Assembly (NCBI GenBank): GCA_030602585.1
Contig: JAUVZJ010000010.1
Coordinates: 1-48,257, forward strand
Direction of reading: 5' to 3'
From: Candidatus Methanophagales archaeon
GTDB lineage: Archaea; Halobacteriota; Syntropharchaeia; Alkanophagales; Methanospirareceae
DNA length: 48,257 bases
A program made the translations under genes and the position numbers. This document shows positions 9,094 through 44,421 of this stretch, in pieces. Position 1 is the first letter of the stretch. Each line of letters starts with the position of its first letter. The notes under the pieces were generated by a model. That model was given only the letters and a program-made list of their open reading frames with translations, made no database searches and was not told where the DNA came from.

Positions 9094-9564
9094 ATGAGTG
9101 TGGAAATGTTGTTGCTGTCCGCCCTTGCGGGTGTAGCCGTGTTGTTCTCCCTGGGAGTTTTGCTCAGCAAAGACAATTTTTACTCGTCTCTGTTCATGGC
9201 TGTAACACTGGTTATTGTAGCAAGCGTTTATGCCTTTTTTGACCTCCAGCCGGTTTTCGTTTTAATCGTGTTTATATTTGTAGGTGCGATTGGAATAGTG
9301 ACGGTGGCGCTTGCGGCAACTTACAGATTCGCACCTGAGCGGCAGGTTTCTGTGCTATGGGCGCTGCCGGTGATTATAACCGCCCTCATTCTTGGTTTTT
9401 CTGTTTACACCACCCAACTTGCTTATGCCGGAGAGATTCAATTTGCGCTTGGGGAGTTTATAACACCAGAATACCTCTTGCTCATTTTATTCCTGACTTC
9501 GCTTATTATACTGCTGATGTTATCAGTTTTAAAAATGGGAGTGGAAGAAGGGGGAAGGAGCTGA
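9094..9564 (+). CDS. fqoJ: F420H2 dehydrogenase membrane subunit J (NuoJ-like)
   Basis: 156 residues with five hydrophobic spans. NuoJ features include SLGVLLSKDNFYSSLFMA and the glycine-containing helix FVLIVFIFVGAIGIVTVALAA, the segment that holds a pi-bulge in complex I. It lies in the membrane arm linking the quinone site to the antiporter-like subunits. Methanosarcina splits J into two genes; here it is one. It begins the cluster and ends one base before fqoK starts. Confidence 0.85.
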   Translation: MSVEMLLLSALAGVAVLFSLGVLLSKDNFYSSLFMAVTLVIVASVYAFFDLQPVFVLIVFIFVGAIGIVTVALAATYRFAPERQVSVLWALPVIITALILGFSVYTTQLAYAGEIQFALGEFITPEYLLLILFLTSLIILLMLSVLKMGVEEGGRS

Positions 9565-9876
9565 ATGCAAGCGATAGATTTATCAATAATATACGTAACG
9601 TCCTTTGCAATCTTGCTCGTAGGATACCTCACCGCGATTTCAAGTAAAGATTTAATCAGACTTCTTATAGCGCTGGAGCTGATGTTTGGCGCTGTATTCC
9701 TGTCCCTGATCCCTCTTTTCTATGCCCTCCCCGATCCCGCTTTTGGTATAGCAATCCTCACGATTTTCACGAGCAGTGGTGAACTTTTAGTCCTTATCGC
9801 CGCTATCGTAACACTGGACAGGCAGAAAAGGAACGTTTACACAAGCTCAGTTACCATAGGCGGTGATAAGATATGA
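9565..9876 (+). CDS. fqoK: F420H2 dehydrogenase membrane subunit K (NuoK/MrpC-like)
   Basis: 103 residues and three membrane helices. The conserved glutamates of NuoK are seen in LIRLLIALELMFGAVFLS and TSSGELLVLIAAIVTL. These buried carboxylates take part in proton coupling. It is packed directly after fqoJ and overlaps fqoM by four bases (ATGA). Confidence 0.9.
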   Translation: MQAIDLSIIYVTSFAILLVGYLTAISSKDLIRLLIALELMFGAVFLSLIPLFYALPDPAFGIAILTIFTSSGELLVLIAAIVTLDRQKRNVYTSSVTIGGDKI

Positions 9877-11327
9877 GTATGCTTTACTTCCTGCTCTTAC
9901 CCTTAATTGTCGTATGTATAGCACCGCTTTTAACACCTAAGAAAGCCACTTACCTCTCCTCCTTAGCTTTTATAGTCCCCTTCTTTTCTATACTATACTC
10001 TCTTCTTTTCAAGAGCGAGCCCTTTGTAATCCCTTTAATGACTTTTTCACCGCCAATAGGCGAGATTTATCTTAATTTTGACTTTATTTCCCATGCGTTT
10101 GGACTCACTATTTGCCTGGTTTCCGCGATGGTCGCCCTTTTTGCTCTGCCCTATATGAAGCATAGATTTGAGGAGATGGAGCGAAATGTAGAAAGCGAGT
10201 TCAGGAAATACATATTCTTATACGACCTCTATGCCGCTTCGATGTTGTGGCTCGTGTACAGTGGAAATCTCATCCTCCTGTATGTCTTCCTGGAAATCAC
10301 GCTGATTACCGCTTTCCTCCTTATCTACTCCTACGGCTATGGTAACCGGAGGTGGGTGGGGCTCCTCTACTTAATCTGGTGTGCCGTCGCAGGTGTTCTT
10401 ACACTTGCAGGATTCATTATAATCGCTTTTGATAATAACACGCTTGCGCTTGACGCATTAAAGAATGTAGGAATGCTCGCTTGGGCTTTTATCTTCGTGG
10501 GTATGTTAATAGAACTTCCTGTTTTAGGACCACATGTATGGCTTCCATGGGCACATGCAGAGGCACCTACACCGGTAAGTGCATTGCTAAGCCCGCTGAC
10601 TGTGGGTCTGGCAGGTTATGTTTTGCTGAGGATTTATCTCGTAGATCCAATTTTTATTGATACTTATCGAATACCGATACTCGCTTATGCGATATTTTCA
10701 AGCATTTATGCCGGTTTTTCGGTCTTCAAGCAAACCGACTTCAAGCGACTGTTAGCTTATTCCACGGTATCGCAGATGGGGTATATGCTGGTAGCGCTCT
10801 GTCTTGGTCCTTTCGGGCTTATAGGTTTAGTTATCCAATACATGTCGCATGCGTTTGGCAAGTCAATCTTGTTCTCGAGCGCGGGCGGAATTATAGCGGT
10901 TCATCATGGTCTGCGCGACATCAATAAGATGGGTGGATTGCATGACTCCATACCGACTATTTCAAATGCCGCCGTGTTCGGGTTCCTGAACTTAGGGGGA
11001 GTCTTAACGGTCGGCATGTTGGGTGAATTTTTCATATTACGAGGTGTTATAGATACTTTCGGCGTCACTACAAGGAGCTTACCAATTATCCTGGCTGTGA
11101 TATTCATGTTCATCCTCTCGGTTTGGTATGGGTTCTATACGATAAGAAAAGTATTTTATGGCAAGCCGAAGGATACAAAGAGGTTGGAAATAAGTAGATA
11201 CTTTTATGTTCCGCTATTTATAATCGGTATTCTTTCAGTGCTGTTATTGTTCCCACCGCTATCAACAGCGTTGATTCAAGGGCTTAATGCAATGCCAGGT
11301 TTAGGGTTAGGAGGTGTCATGCCATGA
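9873..11327 (+). CDS. fqoM: F420H2 dehydrogenase antiporter-like subunit M (NuoM)
   Basis: 484 residues, about 14 membrane helices. The helix-5 glutamate is in LLYVFLEITLITAF, and GPHVWLPWAHAEAPTPVSALLS and FKRLLAYSTVSQMGYM are the diagnostic motifs of the Mrp-antiporter family. It is one of three ion-translocating subunits of the membrane arm. Order K-M-L-N matches the fqo rather than the fpo arrangement. It overlaps fqoK and fqoL by four bases each. Confidence 0.92.
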   Translation: MSMLYFLLLPLIVVCIAPLLTPKKATYLSSLAFIVPFFSILYSLLFKSEPFVIPLMTFSPPIGEIYLNFDFISHAFGLTICLVSAMVALFALPYMKHRFEEMERNVESEFRKYIFLYDLYAASMLWLVYSGNLILLYVFLEITLITAFLLIYSYGYGNRRWVGLLYLIWCAVAGVLTLAGFIIIAFDNNTLALDALKNVGMLAWAFIFVGMLIELPVLGPHVWLPWAHAEAPTPVSALLSPLTVGLAGYVLLRIYLVDPIFIDTYRIPILAYAIFSSIYAGFSVFKQTDFKRLLAYSTVSQMGYMLVALCLGPFGLIGLVIQYMSHAFGKSILFSSAGGIIAVHHGLRDINKMGGLHDSIPTISNAAVFGFLNLGGVLTVGMLGEFFILRGVIDTFGVTTRSLPIILAVIFMFILSVWYGFYTIRKVFYGKPKDTKRLEISRYFYVPLFIIGILSVLLLFPPLSTALIQGLNAMPGLGLGGVMP

Positions 11328-13231
11328 ATGAGTGGGTTTTCCTGCTGCTTTTGTTAGCTCCAGTTGTTAGCAGCATTCCCATTGCTTTAGCATACAAGAG
11401 TAAGGAATGGACGGAGAAATTACCCTACCTTTCTGTCTTAGGTATCTTCGTCTCGGTATTGATGAGTCTTCATATATTCTTCGCCTTGGAAGAGGGGCCA
11501 TATCCTTACGATTGGATTCCAGAGCTTGGGATAAATTTTGTCTTCATGGTTGATTATTTAAGCAGCTACATGGGCGTTATAACAGCAGTTATAGCGTTTT
11601 TCATTGCGATTTACGGCTTGGACTATATGAAAGGCGATTACCGACCCTCGTGGTACTGGTTCTTCTTCAATCTTTTCACTGCTTCCATGCTACTGGTTGT
11701 GTATAGTGATAACCTGCTCTTGCTATTTATAGGCTGGGAAGGACTTGGAGCAGCTTCATGGGGCTTGATCGGACACTGGTTCCGCGATGATGACGAAATT
11801 GCATACGTAGGTAAAACAGGAAGGAAAGTAGGACCACTGGAACTGAGCTGGCCACCGAGCTTTGGCGGTTGGCGAGCAATCTCAACCATAAGATTTGGCG
11901 ACGTGCCCATGTTTTTCGCAATCGCCGCGATATGGGTATTCGCAGGTAATCTCAATATATCCGAAATTGAGTGGGGCACACTTTTTGCAACTATAGGCGC
12001 TGCGGGAACAGTAATTCTTCTGCTTTGTTTACTCATGGGTCTGTTCACAAAATCAGCGCAGGTTCCGTTCAGTGAGTGGCTTATGACTGCAATGACGGGT
12101 CCGACAACCGTTAGCGCACTTCTGCACAGTGCGACAATGGTAGCAGCCGGTGCTTTTGTGTTTATTAAAATTACGTGGTATATTGAACCCTGGACATTGC
12201 ATGGTGTGCCAGGGCTCGAAAGTGTTTATATCCTCGTTCTCTTTGTCGGACTCATATCAGGCTTGTACGGAGCGCTTGCAGGGTCCGGGATGCATGAAAG
12301 AAAAGTTCTGCTTGCTGCAACCACGATGTCAAGCATTGGATTGATGTTCGCAGCGGCAGCCGCTTCTTTCTGGGTGGGGCATTTCGCCGTGCTCGTTGCG
12401 TTCTGGTACATGGCGGTGCATGCATTTGCAAAAGCGAGCTTGTTCCTCGTCAGTGGTCATTTGATTCACGCCACGCACAGCAGGTTCTTATGCGGAGGTC
12501 TCGAGTTTGGGAAAAAGATGAAACCTGCCTTTATCGTTACCATCATCGCTACAACCTTCCTCGTAGGAATGCCCCCTCTTACCGCTTACTGGGTGAAGTC
12601 AGGGATGGACGAAGTCATGGAACATCTGATTCATGATCTTGGCATTGTTCCTCTTGTCCTCCTAATACTTACTTCTTTAGTCTACTCAGGGCTTCTTGCG
12701 AAGTTCCTCAGCTTGAACTTCATAAAAGGAGAGAAACCACACCACGAGCATGTAGAAGGCGGCGGGTTGATGAAATTAGGATACGTAATGATGGTCTCCG
12801 TGCTCTTTTTGCTGGCGTATCTTATTTTTACGAGCGAAGAGACAGCAGAATTTATACACGCGGGAATGGCAGAGGTATCCATCATAGTAGGCATACTAAT
12901 ATTACTGGCGTATGTGGTAGGATTAGTAAAACCAAGGATAGCCGCTCTTTCCAGGCTCGGCACTTTCTTTAGCGACCGAATGTATCTTCCATTTGTTAAT
13001 GATTACATCCTACCGAAGACAGGCTTTTTCGTCTCCCATATCGTCAATGAGTATGGAAACAGGGGTATTGATGGATTCTTCAATACAAAGGTGATGCCAG
13101 GTTTATTCGGCGGTATTTCAAAAGGAATCAGACGTATTCAGGTAGGGGGTCTCACGGCTTATGTCAAAATTGTGCTTGGTCTCGTGATGATATTTCTCAT
13201 AATAGCTTCGATAGGGGGGATGGGGCTATGA
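11324..13231 (+). CDS. fqoL: F420H2 dehydrogenase antiporter-like subunit L (NuoL)
   Basis: 635 residues, the largest membrane subunit. The helix-5 motif LLLFIGWEGLGAASWGLIGHW, the lysine-containing KSAQVPFSEWL, GPTTVSALLHSATMVAAG and the C-terminal extension with a long amphipathic stretch and last membrane helix all fit NuoL. The extension corresponds to the lateral helix HL that braces the membrane arm. It overlaps its neighbours by four bases on both sides. Confidence 0.93.
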   Translation: MNEWVFLLLLLAPVVSSIPIALAYKSKEWTEKLPYLSVLGIFVSVLMSLHIFFALEEGPYPYDWIPELGINFVFMVDYLSSYMGVITAVIAFFIAIYGLDYMKGDYRPSWYWFFFNLFTASMLLVVYSDNLLLLFIGWEGLGAASWGLIGHWFRDDDEIAYVGKTGRKVGPLELSWPPSFGGWRAISTIRFGDVPMFFAIAAIWVFAGNLNISEIEWGTLFATIGAAGTVILLLCLLMGLFTKSAQVPFSEWLMTAMTGPTTVSALLHSATMVAAGAFVFIKITWYIEPWTLHGVPGLESVYILVLFVGLISGLYGALAGSGMHERKVLLAATTMSSIGLMFAAAAASFWVGHFAVLVAFWYMAVHAFAKASLFLVSGHLIHATHSRFLCGGLEFGKKMKPAFIVTIIATTFLVGMPPLTAYWVKSGMDEVMEHLIHDLGIVPLVLLILTSLVYSGLLAKFLSLNFIKGEKPHHEHVEGGGLMKLGYVMMVSVLFLLAYLIFTSEETAEFIHAGMAEVSIIVGILILLAYVVGLVKPRIAALSRLGTFFSDRMYLPFVNDYILPKTGFFVSHIVNEYGNRGIDGFFNTKVMPGLFGGISKGIRRIQVGGLTAYVKIVLGLVMIFLIIASIGGMGL

Positions 13232-14529
13232 TGGAATTGGCGATGATTGCGGCTTTAGCAATTTTGACTCTTGGCTCCGTTTTATCTTTCAAATACCGCC
13301 AGTTGGGATTCTATGGTGCGATAGTTGCTCTTGTAATTGCATTTTCAGCTATCGCATTTTCAGCCTCTCATTTCCTCTATTATGGCATATTTATCCTTGC
13401 AATAGGTATTATCAACCTGGTCTCGCTTAAAGCGATAAAGAGCGAGATTAGGGGTGTTGACTATGGTCTGGTCGGTTTGATGACACTCGCAACCATGTAT
13501 ATCTTCAATACAAACGACCTCGCTATGGTTCTGGCAGCACTCGTCCTCGTTTCTGTGCCCACCTATATCTTAGTTATGATTAGAGAAGGCGGGGCAAACG
13601 TGGAAGTTGGTCTCAAGTATATTACATTTATGGTTTTCGCCACCGTTCTGTTTTTAATTGGTGCAATCATACTGGCATACACCAAAAGCTTGCCTAATGC
13701 GGGTCTTCTGTATGTGCTTGGCTATGTAATGCTCGTTCTGGGTTTGAGTCTTGAAGTGGGCGTTGCACCGCTACACGAGTGGGTTCCGGATGTTTTCTCA
13801 AGTGCCGACCCAATCCCCATTTCGATTATCGCTTCTCTCGCAAAAATCGTGCCATTTATCGCCGCTTTATGGATACTAATTTACACTGCTAATCCTCTAA
13901 CAGCGTCAATAACAATGTTCACTGCCGTGCTCGCAGCTATATCCATGTTTACGGGTAATATAGGCGCTTTGACATCAAAAGAGCATGCAAGAGTCCTCGC
14001 TTATTCTACCGTTGCCAATATGGGTTATGTCTTAGCATGCCTCGTCGCCATTCCCCTTGTTGTCGTTATTGGAGATGGACTTCCAGGGTTTGTTATTAAA
14101 CCGGAATTCATCTATTTAGCACTGGCGGGTGGATTGCTCCTGCTGTTTGCGAATGCGATGGGAAAAATCGGATTTTTCAATGCGATAAAGGAAGAAGGAG
14201 CTTATTCGCCTTTGATGTATATCCTTGCTTTCTCTTTCATCGGTGTGCCACCGCTAATGGGGTTCTGGGGTAAACTCTTCATCCTCCTGCCACTGGTCGA
14301 AGTTGGATATACCTGGCTGGTTGCACTCGTGGTTATAAATTCCGCAATATCCATTCCATATTACATCAGGCTTGCAAGTGAACTCGGTATAGGCTGGAAA
14401 GCAAATCTCACAAACCTTATATGCGTTGCCGTAGTAGTAATAACTTTGGTTACGGTTGCATTTCTACCCGTAGATTGGTTCCTTGAGGGTATGAAGTCCC
14501 TTGCTCAAACCATAGGAGTTGTAATATAG
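13228..14529 (+). CDS. fqoN: F420H2 dehydrogenase antiporter-like subunit N (NuoN)
   Basis: 433 residues and about 13 membrane helices. LGLSLEVGVAPLHEWVPDVF and ARVLAYSTVANMGYVLA are the NuoN/antiporter motifs. It is the antiporter-like subunit nearest the quinone module. Two consecutive ATG codons start it (13228 and 13231), overlapping the end of fqoL. Confidence 0.9.
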   Translation: MMELAMIAALAILTLGSVLSFKYRQLGFYGAIVALVIAFSAIAFSASHFLYYGIFILAIGIINLVSLKAIKSEIRGVDYGLVGLMTLATMYIFNTNDLAMVLAALVLVSVPTYILVMIREGGANVEVGLKYITFMVFATVLFLIGAIILAYTKSLPNAGLLYVLGYVMLVLGLSLEVGVAPLHEWVPDVFSSADPIPISIIASLAKIVPFIAALWILIYTANPLTASITMFTAVLAAISMFTGNIGALTSKEHARVLAYSTVANMGYVLACLVAIPLVVVIGDGLPGFVIKPEFIYLALAGGLLLLFANAMGKIGFFNAIKEEGAYSPLMYILAFSFIGVPPLMGFWGKLFILLPLVEVGYTWLVALVVINSAISIPYYIRLASELGIGWKANLTNLICVAVVVITLVTVAFLPVDWFLEGMKSLAQTIGVVI

Positions 14530-14541
14530 GAGAAGAAGAAA

Positions 14542-14892
14542 ATGATAGAAGCAGTTTTGGTAATCGCAGTTCTGATATTAGTTTGCCTGCTGACAGATGG
14601 TGCACTCCTTATAATCATGAAAATACTGCCGAGGTACAATCCAACGGAGATAAAGATGTCGAGATGGGAGGCAGGAAACATCCCGATAAAGTATCCGAAA
14701 TACACGCTTCCGATGCAGTATTTTGGGTTCATGTTCATGTTCATGGCTGTGGAACCGATTATTGTCATCGTGCTATTGTTCTCCGCATATCCCGGTCCAT
14801 GGTTCCTGGCTCTTTTACTTCTTTCTTTCTTGTTACTCCTGCCTGCAATATACGTGGGTTATAAGATAGCGATGGAGATGTCGGAAGGGTGA
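14542..14892 (+). CDS. fqoA: F420H2 dehydrogenase membrane subunit A (NuoA)
   Basis: 116 residues and three membrane helices. The loop after helix 1 has the sequence EIKMSRWEAGNIPIKYPKY, equivalent to the YECG-containing loop of NuoA but with AGN in place of the usual CG. The second helix carries the conserved acidic MAVEPIIVIVLLF. The subunit helps form the quinone entry region with H and B. GGAGAAGAAG precedes the ATG. Confidence 0.85.
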   Translation: MIEAVLVIAVLILVCLLTDGALLIIMKILPRYNPTEIKMSRWEAGNIPIKYPKYTLPMQYFGFMFMFMAVEPIIVIVLLFSAYPGPWFLALLLLSFLLLLPAIYVGYKIAMEMSEG

Positions 14893-14946: not shown

Positions 14947-17271
14947 ATGGAAAATAAGGACGAACATATGGACTTCCTCGATTCCGGAGTCCTTGCACCG
15001 TTCAAGAAGTGGGCGACGAAATGGAGCCTGTGGCCTGTTCATTTTGTAACATCGTGCTGTGGCGTTGAGCTTGCGCATGCTTTTGGATGTGGCTATGATG
15101 GAGAGCGGATAGGTGCCTTGAATTTCGGTATCGCCCGACAGACGAATTTTATAGTGGTTGAAGGCACGATAACGAGGAAAATGGCAAGGGCGCTGAGGCA
15201 GGTCTGGGAGCAGATGCCCGACCCGAAGTTTGTGTCCGTAATAGGTGCATGTGGCGAACGAGGAGGAATATTCTGGAATGGCTATAACATCATTCGCCCT
15301 TATGACGTAGTTCCAGTGGATTTTTTCGTGCCTGGCTGTCCATCAACTCCTGAAGGTATTTTAAGAGGTGTAAGGGCAGTTCAAGATAAGTTAGACGGTA
15401 AAGATAGAACAACAATAGAATTTAAGAATGTGGGATTGCCCTCTGAAGAAGGAAAGGAAAACAGGGTTCCCACTACTCCAAAGATATATTCACCCACACC
15501 TGCGATTAAAGTGGACGTTCGCAGAGATGCAGATTGGGGCACCGGGAAGGAACTTGTGGAGCGGCTAAAGGGTGAACTGAACGGTCTTTATAAATCTATT
15601 ACTATTACAGGCAAGAATAGAATAGCCATTAAGACGACAACAGAGAACGTAGCAGAGATTGCGAGTAAGATGAGCAATGGGGTGGGCATAGACCACGTGA
15701 AGAACGTGAATGTAATAGACGTCCCGCATGAGAGGAAGATGATAGTGGAGTACATGGCCTCAAGCTATGCAGTTAAGGAATTTATGCCTGTTCTTATAAC
15801 CATTTTCGCAGATATAAGAAGAGACGAGTGCAAATTCCCAAGTCTTACGCAATACTGGGAGAATGCGGATTATTCCGAGAGGGAGATGCATGAATTCTTC
15901 GGTGTTTGGTTTGAAGGTAATAGCGAGATGGGCAGGAAATTCCTTTTAGCTCCTGATACGCCTGAATTCCCGCTTAGAAAGGATTTTAAGCTTAAAGAGG
16001 AGATGTATGCCTTTGAAGAAGGGAAGGTTGTTCCTTCCGGTATCTCAGCCAAACCGGCAACTGAGATTTCAGAACTGCCGCTGCCACTTCCAGAAGGATT
16101 TCTGGAGGATGCAGAGAACAGTGATGAGCTCGTTGTGCTGGTTGGACCACACCATCCGGGCAGTGGACATGCCAGATGGGTCGTTCGGTTGAAGGGAGAT
16201 ATAATAACCGAGGTGCTTCCCGACGTCGGATATGTTCACAGGTCAATGGAGAAACTTGCAGAGAACCGGCTTTACATTCAGAACATCCCATTGTTTGAGC
16301 GCGCTTCGATAACTGATTTTGGCAATATCAACCTCGGGTATGTGAGAGCGATAGAGAATGCGCTTGGGATAGAAGTACCTGAAAGAGCGAAGTATATAAG
16401 GACGGTTATAGCGGAAGTGAGCCGAATAAGTGCGTTTTTTTATGATTCCGCAATCGCAGCTATGATGCTCGGGCATTCTACGGGGTTCATGTATGCGTTT
16501 GCGCTCCGTGAAATGATTGTTGAACTGGTAACGAGGATGACGGGAGCGAGGATAACTGCATCGTTCATCGTTCCAGGCGGTGTGAGAAGGGATATTCCAG
16601 CGGATGTGCTTGAAACGGTGGGTAATCTTCAGTCTGCCGTCCAGAAAAGGTGGAAGAAGTTTGAGGATATATTCATAAACAACCCGGTGACAATCGCGCG
16701 ATTGAAGGGTACTGGTGTGTTAACGAAGGAGGAAGCGATAAAATATGGCGTGGTAGGACCGTTCTTGAGAGCATCGGGTGTTGAATATGACGTGCGGAAG
16801 GTAGAACCATACGAGGCTTATGACCGGCTTAATTGGGACGTCCCGATAAGCGATGACGGCGATGCGTTATCACGATTCTTGGTGAGAGTGGAGGAGATGA
16901 AGCAGAGTTTGAGTATTATAAGACAGGCAGTGGATGCATTAAAAAATATGAAGGGTGGTGTTCTGAGTGAAGAATTGCTGGGCGATTATAAAGATGCTTC
17001 GACTGACATAAGGGGGTACTTTTACAGGGTTTTTGGTGACATAGTAATTCCGAAGGGCGAATGGACTTCTATTACCGAAGCCGCTCGGGGTTCACTGATA
17101 TACAGCCTGATAAGCGATGGGGAATCAAATGTTCCTTACCGTGTCAGGATAGTAACGCCGAGTTGGCTAAATCTGAAAGGTTACATGGAATCACTCAAAG
17201 GGAGCAGGTTAGCAGACCTTCAGGCATTATTCCAGACATGGGGTTATTTCCCGCCTGAGGCGGATAGATAG
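14947..17271 (+). CDS. fqoBCD: Fused F420H2 dehydrogenase subunit B/C/D
   Basis: One uninterrupted 774-residue frame carries three peripheral subunits. Residues about 1-165 are NuoB, with TSCCGVEL (Cys37, Cys38), GACGERGG and PGCPSTPEG supplying the N2 [4Fe-4S] ligands. About 180-360 are NuoC, ending in REMHEFFGVWFEGN and PLRKDF. About 390-774 are NuoD, with GPHHPGSGHARWV, DVGYVHRSMEKLAENR, VRAIENALGIEVPERA and the end GYFPPEADR. Fusion of C and D is known, for example in E. coli, and a C/D fusion is reported for Archaeoglobus; a B/C/D fusion is rarer. The D part lacks extensive insertions. No internal ribosome-binding site or stop was seen at the joints. The product bridges electron entry to the quinone site. 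Confidence 0.92.
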   Translation: MENKDEHMDFLDSGVLAPFKKWATKWSLWPVHFVTSCCGVELAHAFGCGYDGERIGALNFGIARQTNFIVVEGTITRKMARALRQVWEQMPDPKFVSVIGACGERGGIFWNGYNIIRPYDVVPVDFFVPGCPSTPEGILRGVRAVQDKLDGKDRTTIEFKNVGLPSEEGKENRVPTTPKIYSPTPAIKVDVRRDADWGTGKELVERLKGELNGLYKSITITGKNRIAIKTTTENVAEIASKMSNGVGIDHVKNVNVIDVPHERKMIVEYMASSYAVKEFMPVLITIFADIRRDECKFPSLTQYWENADYSEREMHEFFGVWFEGNSEMGRKFLLAPDTPEFPLRKDFKLKEEMYAFEEGKVVPSGISAKPATEISELPLPLPEGFLEDAENSDELVVLVGPHHPGSGHARWVVRLKGDIITEVLPDVGYVHRSMEKLAENRLYIQNIPLFERASITDFGNINLGYVRAIENALGIEVPERAKYIRTVIAEVSRISAFFYDSAIAAMMLGHSTGFMYAFALREMIVELVTRMTGARITASFIVPGGVRRDIPADVLETVGNLQSAVQKRWKKFEDIFINNPVTIARLKGTGVLTKEEAIKYGVVGPFLRASGVEYDVRKVEPYEAYDRLNWDVPISDDGDALSRFLVRVEEMKQSLSIIRQAVDALKNMKGGVLSEELLGDYKDASTDIRGYFYRVFGDIVIPKGEWTSITEAARGSLIYSLISDGESNVPYRVRIVTPSWLNLKGYMESLKGSRLADLQALFQTWGYFPPEADR

Positions 17272-17286
17272 GTGGGGTGATGTAAA

Positions 17287-18381
17287 ATGATAGAAACGCT
17301 AATAAATGAGATAAGGAGCAGCATGGCGGAGAACAGGGTGGACATACCACTCTTAGAGCCACTACTTAAACCAGTGCTTACCGCCCCGCTCATAGGCGAT
17401 TTAGTGGCATTTTTATTGTGGAGACCGATTTTAGCATTCTTATTCCTTTTCACCTGCATGATGTTAGTATCAGTTTTTCTGGTCTGGTGGGAGCGAAAAG
17501 CAGCGGCGAGGATACAGTGGAGAGTGGGACCGAGGGAGGTTTCAAGACAGATTGGCGGGTTAATCCAGCCGGTTGCAGACGGGTTGAGATATATGTTCCA
17601 GGAGGTGATAGTGCATAGGGATGCGGATAAATTCTATTTCATACAGATTCCAATCCTTGCGTTCATTCCGTTTCTACTTCCGCTGTTATTCGTTAATGCC
17701 GGGAATCTCGTTCCGATAGAGACACCTTATGGGATACCACTAATGCTTGCGTTAATAGGTTTATTGCCCGTGATGATTGTGGCGGTGGGTTGGGCTTCTA
17801 ACAACCGATTCGGGTTTATAGGCGCAATAAGAGAAGCATTCATGTATTTCGCATACGAAGTTCCCTTTATCATTTCGGTTATCGCAATGCTTGTGCTGTA
17901 TGGGACAGCGAACCCGGTGGAAATAGTAAAGGAGCAAGGCATTTGGTGGGGGATACTTCGCAATCCTATCGCAGCGCTCGTGTTTTTAATCACAGCGGCG
18001 ATGGCGACCTCGAGGTTGCCGTTTGAGATACCAGAAGCGGACCAGGAGATAGCGTTTGGACCAAATGTCGAATATTCGGGTATTATGTTCGGGCTGGTGA
18101 TGATGATGGCATACGAGAAGGCGTTTATTTTGGGGTGCATGATGACCATATTATTCTTGGGGGGCGGTACCGGACCTGCGATTCCGATGTTGGGCGACCT
18201 TTCAGGAGCGCTGTGGTTCTTAATAAAGACGTTAATAGTGCTAATGCTTTTAACGGCGTTTTGCCGGGCTGTGTATCCAAGATACAGGCTGGACCAGGCT
18301 TTGAGTGCAGGGTGGTCTTCAATGCTTTCCTTAGCCTTAATTGCACTTTTGATTTCAGTAATACTGGGTGTGGTGATGTAA
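17287..18381 (+). CDS. fqoH: F420H2 dehydrogenase membrane subunit H (NuoH)
   Basis: 364 residues, eight or more membrane helices. The NuoH landmarks are WWERKAAARIQWRVGPREV, QPVADGLRYMFQE, FAYEVPFIIS and LPFEIPEADQEI. The last two acidic motifs form the path between the quinone cavity and the proton channels. It is preceded by GGTGGGGTGATG, a good ribosome-binding site, and ends six bases before fqoI. Confidence 0.93.
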   Translation: MIETLINEIRSSMAENRVDIPLLEPLLKPVLTAPLIGDLVAFLLWRPILAFLFLFTCMMLVSVFLVWWERKAAARIQWRVGPREVSRQIGGLIQPVADGLRYMFQEVIVHRDADKFYFIQIPILAFIPFLLPLLFVNAGNLVPIETPYGIPLMLALIGLLPVMIVAVGWASNNRFGFIGAIREAFMYFAYEVPFIISVIAMLVLYGTANPVEIVKEQGIWWGILRNPIAALVFLITAAMATSRLPFEIPEADQEIAFGPNVEYSGIMFGLVMMMAYEKAFILGCMMTILFLGGGTGPAIPMLGDLSGALWFLIKTLIVLMLLTAFCRAVYPRYRLDQALSAGWSSMLSLALIALLISVILGVVM

Positions 18382-18386
18382 GTAAG

Positions 18387-19115
18387 ATGAAAAAGATTAC
18401 AGTTCCGGAATATAACGTGGTGGATAAGGCAAAGAAACACACATGCGCTCTGGCTACGGGAGCACGTGAACTCGTAATGCCTGCGACCGTAACGACACAC
18501 TATCCGAGGGAAAGGAGAAAGGTAGCGGATAATTTCAGGGGCTATATCTTATTTGAGGTAGAGAAGTGCATAAATTGTTTTCAATGCGCTTTTGTATGTC
18601 CTGCGAATGCGGTTTGCATGAAAGAAGCGCCGAATAAGAAGTATTATCCCACGATAGATTATGCGAAATGCATTTTCTGCCATTTCTGTATTGATTCTTG
18701 TGCTGGCGGTGCGTTAAAGCCGACAAAGATTCTTGATGTGGCGTATAAAGACATAGATGAAATGCTTACGCTTACGGAAGAGATGATAGAACAACCGGAG
18801 ATAATCCGCGAGGATGTGCGGTCCGTGGAGTATGTGCTGACGAAAGAAGACCTCGTTCTGAAAAGGAATCCGGGAGAGGATTCCCTATTCGTTAAAGTCA
18901 CACCGCCACCGGAGATTCCGATGGTGAGCCAGTGCGTGGAGCCTGAGAGCTGTCTTGGATGTGGTATTTGCGAGGAGATGTGCGAAAGTGCTGCGATTTC
19001 GTCTTTAAAGGAGGATGGTATGGTGAGGATGAAGATAGATACTGATAAGTGCACGGGATGTGGGTTGTGCGTTAAGGAGTGTTCGATGCAGATATTAAGG
19101 TTAGTGAGGAAGTGA
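18387..19115 (+). CDS. fqoI: F420H2 dehydrogenase Fe-S subunit I with extra ferredoxin domain
   Basis: The ATG at 18387 gives 242 residues. The first half is NuoI: CINCFQCAFVCP (61-71) and CIFCHFCIDSC (95-105) bind two [4Fe-4S] clusters. A second 2[4Fe-4S] ferredoxin follows: CLGCGICEEMC (189-199) and CTGCGLCVKEC (222-232). NuoI normally stops after one pair, so two extra clusters are predicted. The added domain might replace a separate ferredoxin-like subunit or provide the docking path from FqoF. Longer in-frame sequence upstream overlaps fqoH and is unlikely to be translated. Confidence 0.88.
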   Translation: MKKITVPEYNVVDKAKKHTCALATGARELVMPATVTTHYPRERRKVADNFRGYILFEVEKCINCFQCAFVCPANAVCMKEAPNKKYYPTIDYAKCIFCHFCIDSCAGGALKPTKILDVAYKDIDEMLTLTEEMIEQPEIIREDVRSVEYVLTKEDLVLKRNPGEDSLFVKVTPPPEIPMVSQCVEPESCLGCGICEEMCESAAISSLKEDGMVRMKIDTDKCTGCGLCVKECSMQILRLVRK

Positions 19116-19188: not shown

Positions 19189-19494
19189 ATGCAATTGAAC
19201 GTAGAAAACATAAAAGGAAGAGAGCAAATAAAATTCACAGACCATGCGAGAATTGAAATGGCAAAGGATGGCATAAGTGCTGATGGAGTGCTGAAAGCAA
19301 TTGAAAATGGTAAAGTTATAGAGGAATATGTGGACGATAGACCATTCCCAAGTTGCCTTTTGTATGGAACATCAGATGAAAAAACGATGCATGTGGTTTG
19401 TGCGTTGCCCCAGCACATTAATATGTTAATAGTCATAACAGTATATATACCAGACCCGATGAAATGGATAGACTTTGAAAGGAGGAGGAAATGA
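19189..19494 (+). CDS. DUF4258 family protein, probable toxin
   Basis: 101 residues. FTDHARIEMAKDGISADGVLKAIENG followed by the beta segments SCLLYGTSD and MHVVCALPQHINMLIVITVYIPD fits DUF4258, a RelE/BrnT-like RNase-type fold often found with YgiT-type zinc-finger proteins. It overlaps the following gene by four bases. It lies between fqoI and fqoF and has no role in electron transfer. The toxin function is inferred from family and partner. Confidence 0.7.
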   Translation: MQLNVENIKGREQIKFTDHARIEMAKDGISADGVLKAIENGKVIEEYVDDRPFPSCLLYGTSDEKTMHVVCALPQHINMLIVITVYIPDPMKWIDFERRRK

Positions 19495-19733
19495 GGGTGG
19501 AGAAGTGCCCAATTTGTGGTGGAGATACGAAAGAAGACATTGTAGAGGTGCAAGAGATGATTGAAGGGGATGCCTATATTATAAAAGGGGTGAAAGCAGA
19601 GGTTTGTGTTCAGTGTGGTGAGAGGATGTATTCATTGGATGAAATGAGGAGGATTGAGAAAGCAAGAGAAAAGATAAAAAATAGGATGATAAAGCCGATA
19701 GAGGTGAGGAAGGTGGCGGTGGTATCTTTATAA
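19491..19733 (+). CDS. YgiT-type zinc-finger protein (MqsA N-domain-like), probable antitoxin
   Basis: 80 residues. CPICGG near the start and CVQCGERMYSLDE make a four-cysteine zinc site, as in the N-terminal domain of MqsA/YgiT antitoxins. The helix-turn-helix half of full MqsA is absent, so it would bind the toxin but probably not DNA. Overlap with the DUF4258 gene implies coupled translation. Confidence 0.75.
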   Translation: MRVEKCPICGGDTKEDIVEVQEMIEGDAYIIKGVKAEVCVQCGERMYSLDEMRRIEKAREKIKNRMIKPIEVRKVAVVSL

Positions 19734-19816: not shown

Positions 19817-20851
19817 ATGGCAACAGCAATAGGAAAATCGGAATGGGAAGTAAAAGTTCCCGAAAAAACGTTGAAGGAAAAATTGTATTTTGAGAATTTG
19901 AAAGCCACGGTTATAGATACAAAGTTATGCAGCCGGTGTTTGACATGCGCATGCGTATGCCCCGTGGATGGAATAATAGCACCAGATGGCGTGGAATTTC
20001 CGAATTATGAAGATGAATGCACTGATTGCGGTGCCTGTGTGAGAGTATGTCCAAGGTTTGTTTACGAGCCCAAAAGTGGTTTGGGCGATTATACGGACTT
20101 CATTGCCGGGCAGTCAAAGCGGTTCAAAGGACAGGATGGGGCAATGGTGACCGAACTCATCGTTTCTGCAATGGAGATGGGAATGATAGACCGTGGTTTG
20201 TTTGTTGGCAGGGATGAGCAGTGGACGACCGAGATTTTCCATGTGCGCGACCCTGAACAGCTTGAAATTCCCACGCTCGGCGGGACAAAATATACGTTTG
20301 CGAGTGTGCTTCCGGAGTTGAAGAAAGCGGCGAGGTTCACAAAGAAGGGTGTAGCTATTGTCGGAACGCCATGTATGGTTTCAGGAGTTAGAAAACTACA
20401 GCAGGAGTTCCCCTTTTTCCGTGAGAGGATAAAACTCGTTGTGGGTTTGTTCTGCACTGAAAATTTTCATTACGATGAGCTCACAAAATATCTAAAAGAG
20501 AAAGGCGTTGATTTCTCTAAACTCATTAAAACAGATATAACGATGGGTAAGTTCATCGCTACTATGACTGACGAAGAAGAAGTGAAATTCAAGGTGAAAG
20601 CACTTGAAGAGATACTTCCAAGCGGGTGCAATGTTTGCACGGACTTTACTGCGGTGGAAAGCGATGCGAGTGTGGGCAGTGTGGGTAGTGCAGCGGGATT
20701 TTCAACGGTAGTGGTGCGCGAAGAGAATGCGAAGAAGATTATAGATTTCATCAAAAAGAAGGGCTATGCGGAGTTTGGTGAGGCAAAGCCGGAAGAACTG
20801 GGCTTCCTTATCGGGCATAAGAAGAAGAGGGAGGGGAATATTGTAAAATAA
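19817..20851 (+). CDS. fqoF: F420H2 dehydrogenase electron-input subunit F (FrhB-like)
   Basis: 344 residues. Two ferredoxin motifs open the protein: CSRCLTCACVCP (38-49) and CTDCGACVRVCP (68-79). The rest is the FrhB/FdhB domain that binds FAD and F420: GQSKRFKGQDGAMVTELI, VGTPCMVSGVRKL, GLFCTENFHYDEL and CNVCTDFTAVESDASVGSVGSA. It oxidises reduced F420 and passes electrons to the clusters of FqoI. Its position directly after the fqo genes, as in A. fulgidus, supports the assignment over other FrhB paralogues. Confidence 0.92.
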   Translation: MATAIGKSEWEVKVPEKTLKEKLYFENLKATVIDTKLCSRCLTCACVCPVDGIIAPDGVEFPNYEDECTDCGACVRVCPRFVYEPKSGLGDYTDFIAGQSKRFKGQDGAMVTELIVSAMEMGMIDRGLFVGRDEQWTTEIFHVRDPEQLEIPTLGGTKYTFASVLPELKKAARFTKKGVAIVGTPCMVSGVRKLQQEFPFFRERIKLVVGLFCTENFHYDELTKYLKEKGVDFSKLIKTDITMGKFIATMTDEEEVKFKVKALEEILPSGCNVCTDFTAVESDASVGSVGSAAGFSTVVVREENAKKIIDFIKKKGYAEFGEAKPEELGFLIGHKKKREGNIVK

Positions 20852-43320: not shown

Positions 43321-43383
43321 CGAAGCATGGTTAGGTTATGGTATCAACCAGACAAAAACAAAAGGAAGGAGGGAGTGGAAAAA

Positions 43384-44421
43384 ATGGAAGAGAGAAAGGA
43401 TTTCGGCGATTTGGAGAGAGAAGTAATAGGGATGGGGAAATGCGCACTTTGCGGTGGCTGTGTCGCTACTTGCAGGTTGCTCGATTACGGCTATCTCAGT
43501 GTGGACTTTTCAGAAGAACGACCTGCGATAATAGAAGGGCTGCAGTGCCCGCCGGGTTGTGGATACTGCTATTACCAATGTCCAAGAGTGGAGAAACCGG
43601 AGTTAAAGGAAGGACTGGAAGAAATTTACGAAGTTGTTAGCAAAGATGAGGAGATAAGAAAGGCGTGTCAGGATGGCTGTGTTGCCACTTCGCTACTTGC
43701 TTCCGCACTTGCTGATGCGATAGTGGAGGGCTGTATAACCGTTGCAGACAGAGGGGAATGGGTGCCAGAGGTGCGAGTTGCGATGGATAAATCGGGCTTG
43801 ATAAAGTGTGCGGGTAACAAATATACGCCTGCGGCAACACTTACCGGTATAGCAGATGCTATTTTGAACTACGGACTCTGGAGTACCGCTCTGGTAGGAA
43901 CGCCGTGCCAGATGGCGGCGTATGCGAAAATGCTCGATGTCGGACGGGATACGCACAATGCACATAACTTCTCGTCTAACGTGCGGTTAAGAATAGGTCT
44001 GTTTTGCAGGGGGATTTATTCGTATGAGAAATTGATGAAGGAATATCTTGAACGCAAGCGTGGTATAGATCTAAGTGAGATTACAAAATTAGCGATTAGC
44101 GATGATGTTTTACACGTGTATGCAGGTGATAAAGAGCTGTTAAGTGCAGGAATTAACGAGATAGAGGATTGTAAGCGAGACGGATGCAAGATATGTGAAG
44201 ATTTCACCGGGCTGTTTTCTGACATAAGTGTTGGAAATACAGGCACACCCGCAGGTAAGTCCGCGGTTATAATTCATACTGATTTTGGTAAGGAGGTATT
44301 TGAAAGCGCTTTGGAGTGGGGATTTATAGAGGCGAAGCCGATAGACAAGTCAGGTGCGGATTTTATACGCAGGTTGCAGAACGAGAAGAGAGAAGCGGGG
44401 ATTGCAGTGAAGGATATATAA
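43384..44421 (+). CDS. FrhB-like F420-binding Fe-S protein (orphan)
   Basis: 345 residues from the ATG at 43384, which follows GGAAGGAGGGAG; an ATG at 43327 lies inside the expected leader. Two cysteine motifs open it, CALCGGCVATC and CPPGCGYCYYQCP, followed by the FrhB core: GCVATSLLASALADAI, VGTPCQMAAYAKM, GLFCRGIYSYEKL and CKICEDFTGLFSDISVGNTG. It should oxidise or reduce F420 with FAD and pass electrons to its clusters. No HdrA, Frh or formate dehydrogenase gene is next to it, so its electron partner is unknown. It differs clearly from FqoF in the spacing of the cysteines. Confidence 0.82.
   Translation: MEERKDFGDLEREVIGMGKCALCGGCVATCRLLDYGYLSVDFSEERPAIIEGLQCPPGCGYCYYQCPRVEKPELKEGLEEIYEVVSKDEEIRKACQDGCVATSLLASALADAIVEGCITVADRGEWVPEVRVAMDKSGLIKCAGNKYTPAATLTGIADAILNYGLWSTALVGTPCQMAAYAKMLDVGRDTHNAHNFSSNVRLRIGLFCRGIYSYEKLMKEYLERKRGIDLSEITKLAISDDVLHVYAGDKELLSAGINEIEDCKRDGCKICEDFTGLFSDISVGNTGTPAGKSAVIIHTDFGKEVFESALEWGFIEAKPIDKSGADFIRRLQNEKREAGIAVKDI

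Follow-up and report, generated by a model that had tools for sequence, protein, structure and literature searches.

Fusion of FqoB, FqoC and FqoD in ANME-1 archaea, with a probable stepwise history and a probably altered quinone site

Can three core subunits of a complex I-type enzyme be made as a single chain, and by what route would such a chain arise? The question is raised by a 774-codon open reading frame on contig JAUVZJ010000010.1 of a Candidatus Methanophagales archaeon, positions 1-48,257 of which are referred to here as the window. The original prediction described this frame as homologs of NuoB, NuoC and NuoD joined within an Fqo operon, and both the frame and its assignment were confirmed. 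Pfam and NCBIfam models place the domains in the order B, C, D, with matches to PF01058, PF00329 and PF00346 all above the Pfam gathering score, and the operon content agrees with Fqo. The frame, its parts and its neighbors are as follows.

14947..17271, + strand: fqoBCD triple fusion, a single frame from ATG to TAG; 774 amino acids, calculated mass 86.9 kDa
14947..15396, + strand: B domain (NuoB/Nqo6-like), residues 1-150; PF01058 at 63-144, NF005012 at 17-153
15397..15546, + strand: B-C linker, residues 151-200; dN/dS 0.15; 44-57 amino acids in 38 relatives
15547..16002, + strand: C domain (NuoC-like), residues 201-352; PF00329 at 229-351
16003..16110, + strand: C-D linker, residues 353-388; dN/dS 0.21; 29-48 amino acids
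16111..17268, + strand: D domain (NuoD/49-kDa-like), residues 389-774; PF00346 at 508-774, NF004739 at 396-774
9094..14892, + strand: fqoJ, K, M, L, N and A, upstream of fqoBCD in the same operon
17287..18381, + strand: fqoH (PF00146)
18384..19115, + strand: fqoI, a NuoI core and an additional dicluster domain at the C-terminus, with four CxxCxxC motifs in total
19817..20851, + strand: fqoF, the F420H2-oxidizing subunit by homology (PF04432/PF04422)

We consider it very probable (roughly 0.88) that this F420H2:quinone oxidoreductase has its connecting (quinone) module made as one polypeptide, with a stepwise fusion history and an altered quinone site.

Identity of the complex and translation of the fused frame

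The operon reads fqoJ-K-M-L-N-A-BCD-H-I-F and adjoins a polyprenyl synthetase gene. It combines an FrhB-like FqoF with homologs of NuoABCDHIJKLMN, and NuoEFG are absent from it. In the trees, the window falls with Archaeoglobi Fqo and away from both Fpo and Nuo; in the rooted tree the Fqo rows are split from four separate-gene rows with an SH-aLRT support of 100 and a long stem. Fpo, like Fqo, is an F420H2-oxidizing relative of complex I; the window scored 243.1 bits with the FpoD model NF040602 (cut-off 600) and 60.6 bits with the FpoC model NF040611 (cut-off 220). ANME-1 Fqo has been noted to resemble that of Archaeoglobales (PMC9012536; the accessible part of that paper does not mention the fusion). 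By homology, and following the general scheme for Fqo, Fpo and complex I, electrons from F420H2 would enter at FqoF and travel along the FqoI iron-sulfur clusters to N2, which the B domain carries. Quinone would then be reduced at the B/D/H interface, with this step coupled to proton pumping by the antiporter-like L, M and N subunits. Fqo sits in a main energy-conserving step proposed for methane-oxidizing ANME-1.

Fusions among these subunits have several precedents. A 2024 survey (PMC11237513, cluster 482) reports a BC fusion in 47 archaeal assemblies, with 10 further fused to D; the window's kind is probably included among those ten, for which the part of the survey available to us gives no lineage, history or residues. 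The same source cites Brueggemann et al. 2000 for a fused FqoBC in A. fulgidus, which is the same enzyme with B and C joined and D separate, whereas D is on the chain in the ANME-1 group. Archaeoglobi loci with BC and a separate D (A. fulgidus is not named among them) have the same operon order, with domain identities of 47-69%. In complex I of E. coli and Aquifex (7awt, 7q5y), NuoC and NuoD are fused but B is a separate chain, unlike in the window. A bacterial NuoBCD family (NF009808, 791 model positions) has the same three domains in the same order, and a NuoBCD fusion protein has been detected in Desulfococcus multivorans (PMC5109826).

Several lines of evidence bear on whether the frame is read as one chain. 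When the whole window was shuffled 20 times, no stop-free run exceeded 204 codons, compared with 774 for the frame itself. When the window's own genome (92.7% complete) was searched, the frame matched only itself, and separate B, C and D genes were not found. For dN/dS we used 134 of the 703 pairs from 38 fused relatives, namely those pairs that are 80-97% identical, and obtained 0.054 for B, 0.148 for the B-C linker, 0.101 for C, 0.208 for the C-D linker and 0.068 for D. Both linkers evolve as coding sequence under purifying selection. Their low dN/dS, together with lengths that vary among the fused relatives while the reading frame stays open throughout, indicates that both joins are translated.

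Given that the window is a single metagenome-assembled contig, a sequencing or assembly error that deleted stop codons has to be considered, and the original prediction had named such an error as a way in which it could fail. The same open frame recurs, at 60-69% identity, in dozens of further assemblies; such conservation refutes this explanation and leaves it with practically no probability. The triple fusion is real, common to the window's relatives and of a kind already reported.

Another explanation is that the fused chain is cut, or that its parts are also made from internal starts, such that the working subunits are separate, as D is in Archaeoglobi. We scored as an internal start any SD-like 5-mer located 2-10 nt ahead of an in-frame ATG, GTG or TTG. 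By this rule, the window has no internal start in the B-C region or at the C-D junction, in line with the earlier statement that the frame lacks internal ribosome-binding sites. Other fused rows are less uniform: 12 of the 42 are positive in the B-C region (the window not among them) and 3 at the C-D junction, and 18 have an in-frame ATG 30 nt ahead of the D match, all of which would favor separate products. The rule is also insensitive and misses many real starts, given that it detects the ATG gene starts of just 11 of the 42 fused rows; as far as sequence goes, internal initiation could therefore occur. However, all 24 Archaeoglobi BC-D junctions, where D is separate, are positive by a rule of the same kind (ATG or GTG starts), which argues that the site was lost at the fused C-D junction. 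The window itself lacks a site in either region, and linkers that are under amino-acid selection and variable in length do not resemble a conserved cleavage site. We thus regard separate working subunits as highly improbable and retain the single translated chain. An AlphaFold2 model built on a 39-row alignment was poor (mean pLDDT 58.7, pTM 0.47), so the model lends no structural support to any geometry of the chain.

Several features of the complex vary or recur outside the fusion. The extra C-terminal two-cluster ferredoxin domain of FqoI occupies 18834-19115, and four CxxCxxC motifs are present in FqoI of 39 of the 45 untruncated Fqo rows. At loci L078 and L079, FqoI has two motifs and FqoF instead carries a further two; FqoI has two in L082-L084 and three in L060. 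One ANME-1 FqoBCD (L050) carries a Gly/Ser-rich insertion of ~30 residues within the C domain, as judged by alignment. Outside the operon, a second FrhB/FqoF-like protein is encoded at 43327-44421, and a 636-amino-acid frame on a different contig of the window's genome (G000:C58:5275-6474) matches the NuoF family below the cut-off (471.9 versus 558.65 bits).

Occurrence of the fusion and the order of its steps

The fusion was surveyed across 392 genomes drawn from the phylum. Within the ANME-1 family (f1, the window's own), 46 listed genomes had a match, the window's included: 36 carry full-length single frames, 9 carry unbroken pieces, and one (G184) has only homologs that are 34-41% identical. 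Five further genomes of this family, 59-86% complete, were without a match among those listed, and seven genomes outside the listing had no match either. Both Alkanophaga-type genomes (f2, including G037, identical over D to a Candidatus Alkanophaga volatiphilum record) and both Syntrophoarchaeum-type genomes (f5, including G042, identical to a Candidatus Syntrophoarchaeum record) have the fusion. The single f4 genome has separate B, C and D belonging to a ~32% identical complex, and searches of one genome each from f3 and f6 returned no match; the genomes of these three families are 64-84% complete. Among 48 Archaeoglobi-type genomes (f10 and f33) with a listed D match, D is separate in 41, shares one frame with BC but is divided from it by one or more stops in 5, and is fused in 2 (G046 and G094; loci L078 and L079), where the operon surrounds an unbroken BCD. 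Beyond those 48, G307 had a match and G216 did not. B, C and D are separate in five other loci, and B and D are separate in a sixth.

The suggestion that the fusion may be a lineage marker is accordingly upheld in part. The fusion is present in three of the six families of the class (f1, f2 and f5), but f4 has separate genes, f3 and f6 gave no match, and one Archaeoglobi lineage is fused as well. Nor does the fusion track finer branches, since the operon has apparently recombined between genera (see below).

Three records depart from the general distribution. G299 (L069/L080) is assigned to the genus of the two fused f10 genomes yet has BC with a separate D and falls elsewhere in the tree, a mismatch that would reflect either transfer or mis-binning. 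A record titled "uncultured Flavobacteriales bacterium" (L068) carries an Archaeoglobi-type fqo operon and is probably mis-binned. An f5 genome (G040; L089/L108) encodes the fused Fqo along with a second complex in which B, C and D are separate and D has the H/Y/D set of quinone-site residues described below.

Phylogenetic analysis addressed the order of events. In a rooted tree of 70 rows, Fqo divides into Archaeoglobi (SH-aLRT 93) and the ANME-1 group (91), with the fused L078/L079 inside Archaeoglobi (98); the outgroups sit on very long branches. In a 52-row Fqo tree with bootstraps, the ANME-1-type BCD rows form a single clade (100/100), and both Archaeoglobi BCD rows fall among those with BC and a separate D. 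On these trees the fusion falls into one ANME-1-type clade and a probably independent case in Archaeoglobi. Forcing all BCD rows into one clade was rejected with the longer B+C+D alignment (AU p 0.011), and a single origin of all archaeal BCD fusions was set aside on this result; the group was defined by domain layout and tested after earlier trees had been seen. The D-only tree is too poorly resolved to force two fusion origins, and a parsimony count prefers two fusions over a fusion plus a fission by about one step. Within the ANME-1 group, the deep branches of the 52-row tree have low support (72/28 and 81/49). A clade restricted to the ANME-1 family rows, a group named after the tree was seen, was also rejected (AU p 0.0066), which suggests transfer of the fusion into Alkanophaga and Syntrophoarchaeum.

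The junctions themselves indicate how the steps could have occurred. At all 24 non-redundant BC-D loci, an ATG or GTG preceded by an SD-like site is located between -4 and +15 nt relative to the BC stop; the two genes overlap as ATGA in 9 of the 24 and are in phase in 5. The Archaeoglobi BC protein also has the B-C linker by alignment, and the C-D linker of the fusion is the site of the stop and start in Archaeoglobi. Since gene order equals domain order and the junctions span few bases, a small mutation suffices for fusion. The outgroup has separate genes, and the simplest reading is that B and C were probably fused first and that D was joined later, twice. From the trees and junctions, the B-C fusion would predate the divergence of Archaeoglobi from the ANME-1 group. 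The latter would then have lost the stop and start that separate BC from D, and D would have joined independently in one Archaeoglobi lineage (two genomes). The idea that B had been added to a familiar C/D fusion was not borne out, as Archaeoglobi with BC and a separate D make B-C the likely earlier step. As a case of respiratory subunits joined step by step, the fusion is modest but tidy, and likely intermediates survive in some Archaeoglobi, where one or two stops interrupt an in-phase BC and D.

Acquisition of the ANME-1 fusion from bacteria was also considered and set aside. The window scored 432.9 bits with NF009808 against a cut-off of 1156, and a genome search likewise stayed below the cut-off. 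From these family scores and the position of the fusion in trees that hold no bacterial NuoBCD sequence, we infer that the archaeal fusion is independent of the bacterial one.

What maintains the fusion is a separate matter. The original prediction attributed to it a fixed stoichiometry and assembly of the subunits, and selection for a fixed B:C:D ratio and faster assembly would fit the unbroken state of the gene wherever it was found in f1, f2 and f5, as well as the existence of more than one origin in archaea and of the bacterial family NF009808. On the other hand, Archaeoglobi BC and D are adjacent, nearly or actually overlapping, and in phase in 5 of the 24 loci, so fusion is mutationally easy and a benefit is not required. 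Nearly neutral loss of the stop would explain the pattern as well as a benefit in stoichiometry or assembly, and we hold selection for the fusion to be conceivable but somewhat doubtful. Retention may be nearly neutral or mildly favored by co-assembly.

The N2 cluster and the quinone site

The fusion was also thought to place the N2 cluster and the quinone-site subunits on one chain. Residues relevant to this proposal are listed below; Nqo4 numbers are those of T. thermophilus, in PDB chain numbering.

15055..15060, + strand: Cys37-Cys38, first two N2 cluster ligands, by motif and alignment
15250..15252, + strand: Cys102, N2 ligand (motif GACG)
15337..15339, + strand: Cys131, N2 ligand (motif PGCP)
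16153..16176, + strand: HPGSGHAR, residues 403-410, beta1-beta2 loop of the quinone site, with one residue fewer than in complex I and a gap at the His38 column
16309..16311, + strand: Ile455, at the Nqo4 Tyr87 position; Ile in 67/67 Fqo D
16441..16446, + strand: Tyr499-Asp500, Nqo4 131-132; 67/67 Fqo, absent from six Nuo/Fpo-type rows
16465..16467, + strand: Met507, at the Nqo4 Asp139 position; Phe in the other 66 Fqo
16474..16476, + strand: His510, Nqo4 142; 67/67 Fqo, absent from six Nuo/Fpo-type rows

The N2 half of the proposal stands. The window has the four N2-ligand cysteines of a complex I NuoB (37, 38, 102 and 131). Across a redundant set of 88 chains, the CCGxE motif is present in 86, the other two being cut off at a contig end, and all three N2 motifs are present in 85, the exceptions being these two truncations and L081, where GTCG replaces GACG with the Cys retained.

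The quinone half requires qualification: the canonical D residues are absent from every Fqo compared. In T. thermophilus complex I, Nqo4 Tyr87 is essential and forms a hydrogen bond to quinone. His38, within the loop 33-QHPSTHG-39, assists and forms a pair with Asp139; the protons are proposed to come from Tyr87 and His38/Asp139 (PMC7434922, PMC5552823). None of the 67 non-redundant Fqo D sequences, fused or not, has His38, Tyr87 or Asp139 at the aligned column; all have a gap at 38 and Ile at 87, and position 139 is Phe in 66 and Met in the window. The gap is a one-residue deletion with a His one position on (HPGSGH versus HPSTH), which might be a displaced His38 doing the same work. Around position 87, Fqo aligns free of gaps and Arg84 is kept. 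Six residues are exclusive to Fqo and present in 67/67 (Nqo4 positions His40, Glu83, Asp89, Tyr131, Asp132 and His142) when compared with six Nuo/Fpo-type rows, the hydrogenase-like L090 being left out of this comparison.

As a control, we took the best 30 NuoD-like loci from 100 genomes of the phylum, a set that overlaps the first in a few non-Fqo loci too. At positions 38/87/139, 14 of these loci have H/Y/D, 8 have P/Y/F, 1 has H/W/D and 7 have gap/I/F-or-M; the last seven all belong to Fqo, and six of them also occur in the set of 67. The P/Y/F loci tested (L092, L112 and L114) are FpoD above the cut-off of NF040602 (717-733 versus 600 bits). Those with H/Y/D (L089, L110 and L118) and the H/W/D locus (L116) are not FpoD by that cut-off. 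Fpo, with B, C and D separate in L092, keeps the Tyr, unlike Fqo. Judged by aligned residues, at least three types of quinone site exist, and in Fqo even the Tyr retained by Fpo is gone. Two f10 genomes (G127 and G088; L110 and L111) encode a second NuoD-like protein with the H/Y/D set beside Fqo.

Given the loss of the Tyr/His/Asp set at the aligned positions, Fqo probably binds and protonates quinone differently from complex I. Our search of open-licence full text retrieved no report of these missing Fqo residues. A. fulgidus Fqo "probably" works with menaquinone (PMC3949148). Coupling models for complex I assign two substrate protons to Tyr87 and His38/Asp139 of D, and a menaquinone-working relative without those residues would be a ready-made test of such models.

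An apparently mosaic operon

The window and a congener (G001) share the locus and gene order except for a two-gene insert. At the nucleotide level they are 92-97% identical in the upstream polyprenyl synthetase gene and 84-96% identical across fqoF and the genes that follow it. Between a point within fqoJ and fqoI the figure is 60-91%, with the lowest values (60-71%) in C, D and H. Protein identities are 94% for Lon, 92-93% for FqoF, 65-66% for BCD and 59-60% for H. Identity changes sharply at about 9.25 kb and 19.8 kb, and the insert, at 19189-19733 and missing from G001, sits at an identity breakpoint. The window and G001 form a pair in the F tree (98), whereas the D and H trees join G001 with G018 and G003 from two other genera (100) and have the window branching separately, close to the base but weakly supported (66-67). 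The BCD-H-I core of G001 is 83-93% identical to that of G018. A combined L+M tree was set aside because L043 and L034 probably contributed the wrong antiporter paralogs, and the comparison relies on the F, H and D trees.

An assembly chimera, rather than recombination within the genome, could in principle account for the low identity between fqoJ and fqoI, given that this is a metagenome assembly and the identity steps are sharp. A chimera would require two joins within one operon, though, and gene order is the same on both sides apart from the insert; identity also changes stepwise inside the segment (60-91%), and gene GC and GC3 change little. We therefore view a chimera as unlikely and favor recombination, by which parts of the operon, most of all BCD-H, appear to be passed from one ANME-1 lineage to another. 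Our tentative working model is that Fqo would reduce menaquinone at a rebuilt site by way of the Fqo-only residues (Nqo4 His40, Glu83, Asp89, Tyr131-Asp132 and His142), still pumping protons without the Tyr/His/Asp set, and that the ANME-1 BCD-H module would be exchanged between genera by recombination within an otherwise resident operon.

Of the two genes inserted between fqoI and fqoF, one encodes a DUF4258 protein and the other a protein resembling the MqsA antitoxin (30.1 bits against a cut-off of 30); together they may form a toxin-antitoxin pair.
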